Translations under genes and position numbers: made by a program | Shown here: positions 10,141-25,610 of the stretch, piece after piece | Numbering within the stretch: position 1 is the first letter of the stretch | How the letters are laid out: each line of letters starts with the position of its first letter | The notes under the pieces: generated by a model | The model's input: the letters and a program-made list of their open reading frames with translations, nothing else | Told to the model about the DNA's origin: nothing | Database searches by the model: none | NCBI GenBank assembly: GCA_963812945.1 | Contig: CAWEXD010000003.1 | Coordinates: 1-64,000, forward strand | Source: DASRDR01 sp963812945 [NCBI: uncultured Candidatus Rokubacteria bacterium] | Lineage (GTDB): Bacteria; Methylomirabilota; Methylomirabilia; Rokubacteriales | Direction of reading: 5' to 3' | Length of the DNA: 64,000 bases

Positions 10141-10335
10141 CGGTAATTCCCCGCCTCTGCCGTGTGCTCGGCTGGTTCGAACCTGGCTCACCAGGTGGGA
10201 GCCCAGTGCGCGGCTTCAGGCTTCCCCTCTCGCGAGGGGCATGCTCACCGCTCGCGCGGGAGGACTCCCGTTCACGTTAATAGGCTCGCAACCGTCGCCT
10301 GACATCACGCACAGCGCAGGGAAGCGATTACCCGG
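10141..10335 (-). ncRNA. ssrS: 6S RNA
   Basis: Downstream of zapA, the classic position of ssrS, the minus strand holds about 195 nt that match 6S RNA. The conserved stretch of the proteobacterial RNA is present: GGTGAGCATGC, then a G/C-rich hairpin, then GAAGCCTGAAGCCGCGC (compare GAGAAGCCTTAAAACTGCG in E. coli). Further on, an ACCTGGTGAGCCAGGTTCGAACC segment corresponds to the E. coli GAACCAAGGGTTCAAGG hairpin. The two ends pair with each other (CCGGGTAAT with ATTACCGG), giving the closing stem. 6S RNA mimics an open promoter and sequesters sigma-70 RNA polymerase in stationary phase. Ends are estimated to within a few bases. Confidence 0.85.
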
Positions 10336-19148: not shown

Positions 19149-19190
19149 TCCGTTAGTCGAATCGCTCCCTTAGACGGCCCCGGGGTCCTC

Positions 19191-19226
19191 AAGACAAAAA
19201 CATCACGAAGGGTCACCCTTCGTGAT
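19191..19226 (-). terminator. intrinsic terminator behind tRNA-Val
   Basis: A perfect 11-base-pair inverted repeat (ATCACGAAGGG ... CCCTTCGTGAT) at 19202-19226 is followed on the minus strand by GTTTTTGTCTT. This is a textbook intrinsic terminator and separates tRNA-Val from thrS. Confidence 0.88.
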
Positions 19227-19296
19227 GCGGGCAGAGCCGAGCTCACTCGGGTCGCTCACGTCGTGCGTCGGGACACCCCTCGCGCGATCTCGTACG

Positions 19297-19371
19297 TGGT
19301 AGGGACGGGCGGTTTCGAACCGCCGACCTCCTGTGCGTCAGACAGGCGCTCTCCCACTGAGCTACGTCCCT
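19297..19371 (-). tRNA. tRNA-Val (GAC)
   Basis: A complete cloverleaf with encoded CCA at the 3' end (19297-19299). The acceptor stem pairs AGGGACG with CGTCCCT; the D arm is TAGCTCAGTGGGAGAGC; the anticodon loop CTGACGC gives anticodon GAC, reading GTC valine codons; the T arm has GGTTCGAAACC. A terminator follows at 19191-19226. Confidence 0.96.
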
Positions 19372-22258: not shown

Positions 22259-23275
22259 TCAGAGCGTTCGGCCCAGGGCAGAGGCAAGGGCTCGAAGCTC
22301 CGTCATCAGCCGGGCGAACTTGTCGGGCTTGAGCGACTGTGGCCCATCCGAGAGCGCTTCCTCCGGTCGGTGGTGCACCTCGATCAGGAGCCCGTCGGCC
22401 CCGCATGCGAGCCCCGCCTTGGCCATGGGCGCCACGTACTCCCAGTGGCCCGTCCCGTGGCTCGGATCGACGACGACCGGCAGGTGCGAGAGCTTCTTGA
22501 TCACCGGGACGGCGTTGAGGTCGAGGGTGAAGCGGGTGGCCGTCTCGAACGTCCGGATACCCCGCTCGCAGAGGATCACGTTCGGGTTGCCGCCGGCGAG
22601 GACGTACTCGGCCGACAGGAGGAACTCCTTGATCGTCGTCGCCATCCCCCGCTTGAGGAGGACGGGCTTGCCGCACTGGCCGACCTCCCTCAGGAGCGAG
22701 AAGTTCTGGCAGTTGCGCGCCCCGACCTGCAGCACGTCGGCGTACTCGGCCACGACGCCGACCTTGTCGGGCTCGAGGACCTCGGTGATGACCGGAAGGC
22801 CGGTCGCCTTCCGCGCCTCGGCGAGGAGCCGGAGCCCCTCCTCCTCGAGCCCCTGGAACGCGTAGGGCGAGGTGCGCGGCTTGAACGCCCCGCCGCGCAG
22901 GAGGTGGGCCCCGCCGGCCTTCACGCCCTCGGCCACCGTGAGGAGCTGCTCCCATGACTCGACCGAGCACGGTCCCGCCATGACCGCAATGCGTCCACCG
23001 CCGATCGCCGCGCCGTCGATGTGGACGACGGTGTCCGCGCCCCGCACCTCGCGGCTCGCGAGCTTGAAGGGCTGGAGGATCGGCACCATGCTCTCGACGC
23101 ACTCGAGCGCCTCGAGCGCCTGCAGCCGCGTCTTGAAGCGATCGTCGCCGATCGCCCCGATCACCGTGCGCTGCTCGCCGCGGCTCACGTGCGCGCGGAG
23201 CCCCAGCGCCTCGATGCGCCGACACACGTCCTCGATGTCCCCGTCCCCGGTTCCCGGCTTCAGCACGATGATCAT
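22259..23275 (-). CDS. aroF: 3-deoxy-7-phosphoheptulonate synthase (type I-beta, with regulatory domain)
   Basis: DAHP synthase joins phosphoenolpyruvate and erythrose 4-phosphate, the first shikimate step. The 338-residue protein has an N-terminal ferredoxin-like/ACT-like regulatory domain (about 1-70, [21 protein letters not shown]), as in Thermotoga DAHP synthase where it senses Tyr/Phe, then the TIM barrel with [53 protein letters not shown] and DPSHGTGH. An aromatic-rich leader peptide and attenuator precede it, so transcription and enzyme activity may both respond to aromatic amino acids. The aroB gene for the next step is at 51.7 kb. Confidence 0.96.
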
Positions 23276-23382
23276 CTCGAACCTCCCCTACGACCTCGCT
23301 CACCCCCGTCGTCCGCCACCGCCGGGACTCCCCGAGGGTGACGAGGGCCGCGCGGCCCGGCCCGGAACCCGGCGCGCGCCCG

Positions 23383-23429
23383 AAAAACAAAAAGGGCCAC
23401 GAGCGGCGGGTTCCGTCCGCCCGTGGCCC
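23383..23429 (-). terminator. attenuator (intrinsic terminator) in the aroF leader
   Basis: On the minus strand an inverted repeat (GGGCCACG ... CGTGGCCC, 23394-23429, with a GC-rich interior) is followed by TTTTTGTTTTT. It lies after the stop of the aromatic leader peptide and 108 bases before the aroF start. GGGGCC at its 5' base is complementary to GGCCCC inside leader codons 22-24, which could form the competing antiterminator. Confidence 0.8.
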
Positions 23430-23447
23430 CTGTTTCGTTCGGTCGCG

Positions 23448-23528
23448 CTACGGCATGGGGCCGCCGGGCAGACGGTAGCTAAAGTAGTAGCCGAAGAAGC
23501 CCGTCCGGCCGGTGTCCCGTGCCTGCAT
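23448..23528 (-). CDS. aromatic-rich leader peptide of aroF
   Basis: A 26-codon open frame in which six of eight residues at positions 11-18 are aromatic: Phe 11, 12 and 16 and Tyr 14, 15 and 18 (FFGYYFSY). It lies between a strong promoter and an intrinsic terminator upstream of a DAHP synthase gene, the layout of ribosome-mediated attenuation. Stalling at Phe or Tyr codons when charged tRNA is scarce would favour the antiterminator and aroF expression. There is no Shine-Dalgarno sequence: the ATG is only 10 bases after the -10 box, so the mRNA is leaderless or nearly so. A longer in-frame version could begin upstream, but it would run through the promoter. Confidence 0.8.
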   Translation of the reverse strand: MQARDTGRTGFFGYYFSYRLPGGPMP

Positions 23529-23538
23529 GATGGCCAGC

Positions 23539-23567
23539 AGAATAGAAGGCCGGCCGCATGGTGTCAA
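23539..23567 (-). promoter_or_regulatory. sigma-70 promoter of the aroF leader
   Basis: A perfect -35 hexamer TTGACA (23562-23567) and a -10 hexamer TATTCT (23539-23544) are exactly 17 bases apart on the minus strand. Transcription should begin near 23532, only about three to five bases before the leader peptide ATG. Confidence 0.85.
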
Positions 23568-23593
23568 GCGGGTGGCAAGAACGGCGGTCAGGC

Positions 23594-24205
23594 TCATGCG
23601 CGCTTCTCGAGGAGAGCCATGGTCCACGGAAGCGGCGTCGCCAGCTCCGATACTCGGAAGCGGCGTTCGACGAGAGTCACGAACGCCCGGCGGCTGAAAT
23701 GCTGGATGTGCCCCGGCGTGTTCCCGAAGTCCCGCACGTATGCGCCGCGCGCCAGATTGAGGATGCGCCAGAGCGGTTCGCACGGCACGCTGGCAAGCGC
23801 CCAGCGCCGCGTCGTGCGCGCGAGCTCGTCGATCGCGGCTACGGGATCGTGAAGGTGCTCAAGCACTTCGCAGGCGACGACCAGGTCGAACGCGCCGTCA
23901 CGCACCGGCAGGCGCACCGCGTCGGCAACCAGCAGCGACGCGCCGGCGCGCGCCGCAGCCTCGCGGTCGAGCACATCGCATACCAGATCACACGAGACGA
24001 TGCGCGCACCGGGTCGCGAAAGCGCACGCAGGCGCATGGTCAGGTGCCCTTCGCCCGCCCCCACTTCGAGCGCGGATCGCCAGTCCACGCCGCGCACGAG
24101 GCGATCCAGGGCGCCGAGGAAGCCTGCAACGAGCCGCCGCGCGACTGGGTTGCGCGACCCGTACTTGTCGTAGACGTTGCCGGCGACGATTGCGGAAGCG
24201 CTCAT
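23594..24205 (-). CDS. class I SAM-dependent methyltransferase
   Basis: A 203-residue methyltransferase with the Rossmann motif I ALEVGAGEGHLTMRL, motif II-like acid in VSCDLVCDVLDREA, and the motif IV/V block FDLVVACEVLEHLHDP, as in Methyltransf_11/UbiE-like small-molecule enzymes. The C terminus (YVRDFGNTPGHIQHFSRRAFVTLV) is characteristic of sugar or lipid-linked methyltransferases found beside glycosyltransferases. The ATG at 24205 overlaps the stop of the GT2 gene upstream (ATGA), so the two form a unit, perhaps for modifying a cell-surface glycan. The substrate is unknown. Confidence 0.82.
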   Translation of the reverse strand: MSASAIVAGNVYDKYGSRNPVARRLVAGFLGALDRLVRGVDWRSALEVGAGEGHLTMRLRALSRPGARIVSCDLVCDVLDREAAARAGASLLVADAVRLPVRDGAFDLVVACEVLEHLHDPVAAIDELARTTRRWALASVPCEPLWRILNLARGAYVRDFGNTPGHIQHFSRRAFVTLVERRFRVSELATPLPWTMALLEKRA

Positions 24206-25179
24206 CCGTGCCGCTCCGGCACCCCTGCGCGGTGGCGGCCTTCCACTTCCATTCGCTTCACCCGGTACAGCGTCTCCTCGAGCAGGCGTCGATTCATCGC
24301 GATGAGATCGGCGGCAACCCCGATCAGCGCCACCTGGAACCCAACAACGAACAGCACGGCGCCCAGGATGAGCGACTGTACGTGGCCCGTGGGCCCAGGA
24401 TGAGTCAGGAAATACCACATGAAGCGCAGCCCGAGCACGATACCTCCCAGCGCGAGCAAGATGCCAAGCGTGACGAACACGCGCAGCGGCTCGTACATCG
24501 CATAGATGCGCAGAACGGTCGCCCCGCTGCGACGGAGGTACTCCGGCACGCTGCGGAAGAGGCGGCTCGGTCGCATCGGCCGATTCGTTTCGACGGGGAT
24601 CGAGGCGACAACAAGGTCACGCTTGCCCGCCTGGATGATGGTCTCGAGCGCGTACGAGAACTCGCTCACCACGTTCAGCCGCAGCGCCGCCTCGCGCGAG
24701 AAGGCACGAAAGCCGCTTGTGGCGTCCCGGACTTCCGTGCCGCTCAGCCGGCGCACCAGCCAGCTCCCGAGACGCTGCAGCTTCTTCTTGAGCCACGAGA
24801 AGTTCGCCACGCGCTCCACTTGACGGTCACCGACGACAAGATCTGCGCGCCCCTCGAGGATCGGCTCCACGAGCCGCGCGATGTCGGCACCTCGGTACTG
24901 GTTGTCGGCATCGGTGTTCACGATAATGTCCGCCTCGGCGCGCAAAGCCGCATCGAGTCCAGCCTTGAACGCGGTGGCAAGTCCGCGGTTCTGCGGGAAG
25001 CGCACCACGTGGTGAACGCCGTGCGCGCGCGCGACCTCCGAGGTACCATCGGTCGAGCCGTCGTCGATGACGAGCCACTCGATGGCGTCGATCCCGGGCA
25101 CCGTGCGGGGCAGCGCCCGCAGCGTAACCGGCAGCGCCTCGGCCTCGTTGAAGCAGGGAATCTGGATGACGAGCTTCAT
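24202..25179 (-). CDS. family 2 glycosyltransferase, dolichol/undecaprenyl-phosphate sugar transferase type
   Basis: A 325-residue GT2 enzyme. The GT-A domain has IPCFNEAEALP, the nucleotide-binding DDGSTDGT and the DxD-type NTDADNQYRG, with the block GLATAFKAGLDAAL between them. Two hydrophobic segments near the C terminus (about 235-260 and 270-300) resemble DPM1-type and ArnC-type enzymes that move a sugar from a nucleotide to a polyprenyl phosphate. The polytopic GT39-type protein encoded upstream could use such a lipid-linked sugar. It is translationally coupled to the methyltransferase downstream. Confidence 0.87.
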   Translation of the reverse strand: MKLVIQIPCFNEAEALPVTLRALPRTVPGIDAIEWLVIDDGSTDGTSEVARAHGVHHVVRFPQNRGLATAFKAGLDAALRAEADIIVNTDADNQYRGADIARLVEPILEGRADLVVGDRQVERVANFSWLKKKLQRLGSWLVRRLSGTEVRDATSGFRAFSREAALRLNVVSEFSYALETIIQAGKRDLVVASIPVETNRPMRPSRLFRSVPEYLRRSGATVLRIYAMYEPLRVFVTLGILLALGGIVLGLRFMWYFLTHPGPTGHVQSLILGAVLFVVGFQVALIGVAADLIAMNRRLLEETLYRVKRMEVEGRHRAGVPERHG

Positions 25180-25610
25180 CGGCCGGCGCCGGGCGGCTCC
25201 TGGAGAGAGCCGCGCCCATGAGGGCCTTGAGCGCGATCCGTGGCGTTGCGCACCTCCTGTCCACTCTGGAGGGTGCTGAACGCGATCGCGCCCGCTCGCG
25301 TCGTCGCCTCTCTTTCCTTCATGAGCGGCGCACAGAGTGTCTCACGGGTGGCACAGATCCTGTGCCTCCGCCATCTCATCGTCAAGTGCCGGATCGCCTG
25401 GATGTCGGGGTGCGAAGAATCCGGGAATGACGGGTAGTCGACCATTGGGGAACCCGCAGGCTCGGATCCGGACATGTTCCCGCGGAGTCGACGCCGCCCT
25501 CGCCGGGGGGACCGCATCAGGGCTACCGCGAGGGCTGCAGCGACCAGGAGAGCCAGGCGACGTCCAGCAGGACCGCTCGGGAATCGTTTCAGGGGCCTCG
25601 ACTCGCTCAC
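25176..25610 (-). CDS. uncertain small open frame between two glycosyltransferases
   Basis: A 144-codon frame that ends in an ATGA overlap with the GT2 gene and starts 17 bases after the GT39-type gene. One hydrophobic stretch (RLALLVAAALAVALM, about 18-32) could be a signal anchor. The rest is rich in Arg, Ser and His and matches no family I know. It may be a real small membrane protein or simply unconstrained sequence. Apart from this frame, the 448 bases from 25180 to 25627 hold nothing I recognise. Confidence 0.3.
   Translation of the reverse strand: MSESRPLKRFPSGPAGRRLALLVAAALAVALMRSPRRGRRRLRGNMSGSEPAGSPMVDYPSFPDSSHPDIQAIRHLTMRWRRHRICATRETLCAPLMKEREATTRAGAIAFSTLQSGQEVRNATDRAQGPHGRGSLQEPPGAGR

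Follow-up and report, generated by a model that had tools for sequence, protein, structure and literature searches.

In the trp and pheA attenuators of Escherichia coli, a ribosome stalls at the control codons of a leader peptide and the RNA forms alternative pairings among successive segments (1:2, 2:3 and 3:4). For the ilvBNC leader of Corynebacterium glutamicum, Morbach et al. reportedly described in 2000 an attenuator peptide that is made without a ribosome binding site (RBS). Attenuation of aroF by an aromatic leader is already known from the same species, where aroF transcription is controlled through the aroR leader (Phe-Tyr-Phe) and goes up under Phe limitation with no response to Tyr (Neshat et al. 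2014 via PMC11802643), and the aroR leader is also predicted in PMC4046766. Such control has been proposed for two further groups: the portion of PMC8632094 that deals with aroF describes, in Acholeplasma, the uORFC-13-1 motif, a uORF with at least one Phe together with an RBS and a possible promoter and terminator, for which the mechanism is given there as a proposal only, and in Shewanella an attenuator sensing tyr-tRNA was predicted before aroF on the basis of a 1980 E. coli paper (PMC2659441).

Here we analyse the region upstream of aroF in a 64,000-nt stretch of Rokubacteria DNA (the window, meaning this stretch as a whole), and conclude that the element found there is very probably a ribosome-mediated transcription attenuator of aroF. 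It is like the E. coli trp and pheA systems in its logic, a control-codon stall combined with alternative segment pairing, and unlike them in its target, in its near-leaderless start, in having codons for two aromatic amino acids and in an antiterminator arm that is part of the ORF and directly follows the control codons. The ilvBNC leader is similar in the reported lack of an RBS, but belongs to branched-chain genes in Actinobacteria. C. glutamicum aroR, likened here by description and not by sequence, also has a DAHP synthase gene controlled by attenuation downstream of an aromatic leader peptide; it comes from an Actinobacterium, three aromatic residues are named for it vs six in the window, and the summaries cited above do not mention a two-hairpin form, whereas such a variant occurs in Rokubacteria. 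The Acholeplasma motif shares a Phe uORF and a possible promoter and terminator before aroF, but is from another phylum and is described, in the portion on aroF, with at least one Phe residue and with an RBS. The Shewanella prediction shares an attenuator before aroF, and no leader is shown in the part of that paper concerned with it. The aroF leader family described below, its two-hairpin variant and the apparent reuse of its RNA frame with Leu-, Val- or Gly-rich leaders look new: the literature searched, which included Rokubacteria and Deltaproteobacteria and had most subscription papers outside its coverage, held no description of this family, of its three-frame arm or of the codon exchange. 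The family makes a tRNA-charging control of shikimate pathway entry testable in two groups of bacteria, of which one has hardly any cultured members.

Arrangement of the aroF upstream region

The elements are listed below in the order of transcription, all on the minus strand.

23562..23567, minus strand: -35 hexamer TTGACA (promoter scan and sequence reading)
23539..23544, minus strand: -10 hexamer TATTCT, 17-nt spacer from the -35, 10 nt upstream of the leader ATG
23448..23528, minus strand: leader ORF MQARDTGRTGFFGYYFSYRLPGGPMP, 26 codons, near-leaderless, without a Shine-Dalgarno match, start codon assigned
23501..23507, minus strand: segment 1, CGGACGG, upstream of the Phe codons; potential partner of A when the ribosome is absent (protector-like)
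23475..23498, minus strand: control codons FFGYYFSY, leader codons 11-18, 6/8 Phe/Tyr
23466..23475, minus strand: segment A, CCGUCUGCCC, antiterminator 5' arm, inside the leader ORF directly after the aromatic codons
23457..23462, minus strand: segment A', GGCCCC, antiterminator extension
23425..23430, minus strand: segment B', GGGGCC, partner of A'
23413..23422, minus strand: segment B, GGGCGGACGG, terminator 5' arm, pairing with A (antiterminator) or C (terminator)
23394..23409, minus strand: segment C, 3' arm of the terminator hairpin
23394-23429, minus strand: terminator hairpin (sequence and folding)
23383..23393, minus strand: U-tract TTTTTGTTTTT (sequence reading)
23282..23288, minus strand: Shine-Dalgarno-like GGGGAGG of aroF (read by eye)
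22259..23275, minus strand: aroF, type I DAHP synthase with a ferredoxin-like N-terminal domain, ATG at 23275 (PF00793, E 3e-80; PF18152, E 1.1e-22)

The original prediction, made from the letters of the window, had set a perfect promoter, a 26-codon peptide with six Phe/Tyr in eight positions and a terminator with a T-rich tail in a row before a DAHP synthase gene. Peptide (FFGYYFSY in the ORF 23528-23448), terminator (hairpin 23429-23394, U-tract 23393-23383) and target (both Pfam domains) are as described, and TTGACA-N17-TATTCT is indeed present, but 'perfect' overstates a promoter with 10/12 consensus matches, which is nevertheless the sole promoter-like match in 22800-25200 (shuffle mean 0.1). 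The leader RNA (23381-23534) folds with z = -5.1 relative to dinucleotide shuffles, and the hairpin is absent from the output of a simple terminator scan, though sequence and folding show it. The prediction was also right that GGCCCC can pair with the 5' base of the terminator; this motif occupies leader codons 23-24 instead of 22-24, however, and is a minor part of an antiterminator whose main helix, A:B, had been missed. Since the leader frame is open further upstream of the ATG at 23528 (GTG at 23597, TTG at 23567), this ATG is an assignment.

Across all 64 kb and on both strands, the leader frame is the sole stop-bounded frame with an ORF of 12-50 codons and at least five aromatics in nine codons, and this same frame also contains the A motif and its downstream complement. 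When other parts of 36 relatives' loci were tiled as a chance control, an aromatic ORF with A and complement was met in 2 of 1230 tiles at 5/9 aromatics or more and in none at 6/9. The best identity of the window AroF in the initial set of relatives (Rokubacteria / Methylomirabilota) was 78%; the closest locus, L153 (genome G095), was found later, is 87% identical over aroF, and has the promoter TTGACA-N18-TATTCT at the same distance to its leader as in the window.

Distribution of the leader

Of 77 distinct Methylomirabilota upstreams, 71 have a leader ORF with A:B pairing directly before aroF; 70 of these leaders are aromatic-rich and one (L003) weakly so. The 77 are what is left of 116 after removal of those with identical last 150 nt, and because this wider set was partly picked by the RNA model it is biased; the 71 leaders comprise 63 placed by script (at least three aromatics in nine codons), seven placed by hand (4-7 aromatic) and L003. 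The set that is independent of the RNA model, namely the 42 loci with Methylomirabilota, Rokubacteria, NC10 or Methylomirabilis titles among 80 aroF loci, gave a leader directly upstream of aroF in 37, the weakest being L003 with two aromatics in nine codons and L007 with three; two aroF loci (L059 and L072) had <120 nt upstream. A profile search with the aroF-leader RNA model found matches at E <= 0.01 in 74/95 Methylomirabilota genomes, part of them not at aroF. Six of the 77 upstreams have no adjacent leader. In three (L028, L031 and L044) other coding-like sequence extends up to aroF. Two (L001 and L014) belong to the second copy of a tandem duplicated aroF, and the genome of L014 has a leader before the first copy (L092). 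In the sixth, L029 (G025, same phylum set), ∼1.4 kb of intervening sequence, perhaps an insertion, lies between the leader and the aroF downstream of it (L191/L213 vs L029).

Outside Methylomirabilota, 8 of the 37 loci in the initial 80-locus set share leader and frame by eye (L051, L064, L065, L067 and L076-L079), with the L064 type reaching the same A:B pairing in other letters. L053 (Clostridiales) and L058 (Nitrospiraceae) also have aromatic-dense ORFs upstream of aroF. In the order of the L078 genome (record titled Desulfuromonadaceae), to which the L051 genome also belongs and which we call Desulfuromonadales-type, the leader model matched in 57 of the 58 genomes searched. An aromatic-dense leader (at least 5/9 codons) precedes aroF in 38/38 examined loci (L240-L277), which were taken one per genome from the best-scoring model matches, with at least three in genomes already in the initial 80-locus set. 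The strict CCAYGG-type terminator pattern is present in 32 of the 38, by a leader scan whose score includes a terminator bonus of two points, and the script resolved the A:B duplex in 33; the other five are anchor failures, with no anchor in L245, L247 and L270 and the wrong hairpin in L259 and L267. Peptides of this order are of FFWFGFFGFF and FWYGFYFRPSARG types, often with Trp, and the arms are very different in sequence yet retain their pairing. Most of these genomes carry a second, more distant DAHP synthase copy (∼50% identical).

Leader start codons were assigned by rule. A promoter-like pair with at least 8/12 matches precedes 54 of the 63 script-placed leaders, and in 42 of the 54, including the window (10 nt), the assigned ATG follows the end of the -10 by 9-16 nt and has no Shine-Dalgarno match. 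If transcription starts ∼7 nt after the -10, as is general, the RNAs of these 42 leaders would begin 2-9 nt before the AUG; the near-leaderless start pointed out for the window is thus a recurrent arrangement. Six leaders (L005, L013, L015, L016, L019 and L020) have 30-32 nt from -10 to ATG and a GGAG-type site. In Rokubacteria leaders starting ATGGGCA (e.g. L011 and L018), AUGGGCA can pair with the arm UGCCCA, and this pairing might tie near-leaderless initiation to the switch.

Selection on the codons and on the RNA arm

Within the 12 codons before the A motif of the 63 leaders, 367 of 755 codons in the leader frame are aromatic (F 228, Y 98, W 41). The two remaining frames hold 106 in 1384, and the aromatic share in AroF itself is 4.5%. 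Phe is present in all 63 leaders, Tyr in 59 and Trp in 31, the window leader having no Trp. The last aromatic codon lies three codons before A in 62/63, with the window as the exception. Comparison of the window with L153 over GFFGYYF gave four synonymous and no non-synonymous changes.

The arm itself is read as V-C-P in 60 leaders and as R-L-P in three (window, L039 and L153), and the script recorded P-S-A in 23 of the 38 Desulfuromonadales-type loci, where L249 is an R-L-P example and the frame recorded for L248 stems from a second copy of the motif. Because one RNA arm is kept across three reading frames, it is the arm and not the peptide tail that is conserved, an unusually clean split of RNA selection from peptide selection.

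In an alignment of 38 rows the A:B helix is 97.9% paired, and the covariation score of A:B plus A':B' exceeded that of all 500 shuffles and all slid registers, with a count of double-change pairs that 17 of the 500 equalled or exceeded. Over 71 rows, four neighbouring A:B pairs are intact in 71/71, and one of these four reads U-G in 29, U-A in 25 and C-G in 17; the end pair is G-C in 36, C-G in 21 and G-U in one, and is unpaired in 10/68. Pairing of A' with B' is looser in the larger set (273/354 cells in 71 rows, compared with 86.2% of cells in 38 rows). The B:C helix is 97.7% paired in the 38 rows with a double change at a single pair only (G-C 19, A-U 15, G-U 4), and its pairs are intact in 57 to 71 of the 71 rows of the automatic alignment, depending on the pair. 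When the tails were recoded synonymously, the real A:B duplex was better at p < 0.05 in 22/64 (median p 0.09), a weak signal that we ascribe to GC-rich V-C-P codons pairing well anyway. The paired changes support the predicted A:B pairing. The check proposed earlier, a look in relatives for a conserved peptide with compensatory hairpin changes, thus turned up both, with GFFGYYF kept in L153; and the reading of the layout as ribosome-mediated attenuation gains from the 71/77 upstreams with leader and A:B, from the paired changes and from their occurrence in the Desulfuromonadales-type order.

Predicted RNA folding by ribosome position

Computed hairpin energies in the window are -39.4 kcal/mol for A:B and -32.6 kcal/mol for the terminator B:C, or -35.6 and -34.3 with other segment boundaries, and A:B is at least as stable as B:C in 67/71 upstreams. 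We folded the nascent RNA before C is made, with a 12-nt ribosome footprint, and took P(A:B) over the main 10 pairs; it stands at 1.00 with the ribosome anywhere from codon 10 to codon 14 and then drops to 0.90 at codon 15, 0.60 at 16, 0.27 at 17 and 0 from codon 18 through the stop. At codon 18, the last Tyr, the ribosome thus already masks the main A:B pairing and leaves GGCCCC free, the latter pairing with a probability of at least 0.92 for ribosomes up to codon 19. Equilibrium folding of the free RNA gave no switch, the terminator having a probability of at least 0.996 at every stall from codon 2 and for three footprints. As the terminator wins at equilibrium for every stall site, the switch must be kinetic, so that A:B forms first and then persists; kinetic switching is usual for attenuators. 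A is paired upstream with a probability of 0.86 in folds with no ribosome, and the counterpart of segment 1 in L153 is CAGACGG against CCGUCUG. Predicted pairing of segment 1 with A can complete the classical 1:2, 2:3 and 3:4 plan in the window leader.

Probable mechanism and alternatives

The hairpin might serve only as the intrinsic terminator of the upstream gene, with the aroF promoter elsewhere and the aromatic ORF there by chance. The gene upstream of the window promoter, a methyltransferase by Pfam, does lie on the same strand as aroF and ends just before the promoter, as this explanation would have it; but the leader is set apart from that gene by a promoter-like pair, the 64 kb hold no second aromatic-dense short ORF, and the aromatic codons are conserved together with A:B. 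In many Rokubacteria loci, moreover, the leader still adjoins aroF although another short ORF (..YYYR.. type) sits farther upstream, and we consider a mere terminator extremely unlikely. Operation of the A:B / B:C switch by a ligand or a protein (riboswitch, TRAP-like) instead of the ribosome would agree with an RNA core that is kept regardless of reading frame, but aromatic codons that are kept with synonymous change and at near-fixed spacing to A make sense only if translated. Searches with Rfam leader families (Phe, Trp, His, Leu, Thr), T-box and riboswitch models gave no match at gathering score in the window or in 11 relatives' loci, and at E up to 5 the window returned only microRNA, viral and lncRNA models, all below their cut-offs, so that the absence of a relevant family also speaks against such a switch, which we regard as very unlikely.

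The leader peptide might instead act itself, as a small protein or by ligand-dependent nascent-chain arrest, with attenuation secondary, and many leaders do end in a similar V-C-P-x-A-L-T. This tail is swapped for R-L-P-x-G-P or R-P-S-A in others while the RNA arm is unchanged, Cys to Arg changes within it keep the pairing (17 rows with C-G), and the first leader codons differ between the window and L153; an active peptide thus has a very slim chance of being the explanation. By sequence and folding, the region has clustered end-product codons, a terminator before the gene, a maskable antiterminator arm and a pathway target, DAHP synthase. Under ribosome-mediated attenuation, RNA polymerase would start a few nt before the leader AUG. 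With charged tRNA-Phe and tRNA-Tyr in ample supply, the ribosome would reach the stop codon and cover A, the B:C terminator would form and aroF would be off. With these tRNAs uncharged, the ribosome would stall in FFGYYFSY before A and the emerging B would pair with A, leaving C single and the terminator unformed, so that aroF would be transcribed. If there is no translation, segment 1 would pair with A and the terminator would form.

One- and two-hairpin leaders

By pattern, 54 of the 71 leaders have a first hairpin without a U-tract followed by a second, U-tailed hairpin. A single U-tailed hairpin is found in the window, L153, L039 and L037, and two U-tailed hairpins in L021, L026, L161 and L176; L144 and L149 are ambiguous by pattern, and among seven unparsed leaders L036 and L188 are single and the other five double by eye. 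In the two-hairpin form, which most Rokubacteria examined have, A:B formation may free C to pair with the 5' arm of the second hairpin (D). This C:D pairing is 96.3% kept, but its covariation score, reached by 117 of 500 shuffles, does not clearly exceed the random level; a relay from A:B to C:D is plausible in such leaders.

Apparent recurrence of the RNA frame with other control codons

The aroF model also matches upstream of ppdK (pyruvate phosphate dikinase) in 31 loci (L100-L105, L109, L110 and 23 others between L158 and L192), with weak-to-moderate E values of ∼2e-6 to 0.06. Their leaders are rich in Leu, which takes 172 of 403 codons over a 13-codon stretch, arm and hairpin are both present in 30/31, and three (L166, L175 and L182) have C-G where most carry U-A or U-G. 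In seven ppdK upstreams inspected, a promoter-like sequence of the TTGACA..TAACAT type lies between attenuator and gene. NC10-type genomes have Val/Ile-rich leaders with the same RNA frame before genes for isocitrate lyase, malate synthase, a Rossmann-domain protein and a D-glutamate cyclase-type protein (by Pfam), and also before an acyl-CoA dehydrogenase-like gene and others, identified by reading of the sequences; a Gly-rich leader (L225) with this RNA frame precedes a glyoxylate aminotransferase-like gene. These Val/Ile/Gly loci are L098, L107, L165, L169, L172, L185, L186, L190, L193, L224-L227 and L230-L238.

A model built on nine leaders of the Val type, with aroF leaders left out, recovers several aroF leaders (E 5e-10, 2.5e-8 and 5.5e-8). 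These cross-matches speak for a common origin of the frames but do not prove it. We give about even chances to the proposal that the aroF leader is a member of a modular Methylomirabilota attenuator family, composed of a leader ORF, a GUCUGCCC-type arm, a GGGCAGAC-type hairpin and often a second hairpin, in which exchanged control codons would make the transcription of enzymes at the branch points of phosphoenolpyruvate, pyruvate, acetyl-CoA and glyoxylate depend on the charging of tRNA for Phe/Tyr/Trp, Leu, Val/Ile or Gly, also for genes with no role in synthesis of the amino acid sensed. If codon reuse is true, gene-to-gene copying of attenuators as modules is possible, and central carbon flow would be directed by amino acid charging, unlike the usual understanding of attenuation.

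In the window, the best match of the Val-type model is the aroF leader, a marginal one (E 5.6e-4, with the next place at 9.7e-4). That next place, 19171-19301 on the minus strand, lies just after a tRNA gene (19300-19371) and is perhaps merely its terminator. The window also holds a 6S RNA at 10144-10325 on the minus strand (Rfam RF00013, E 3.3e-19).
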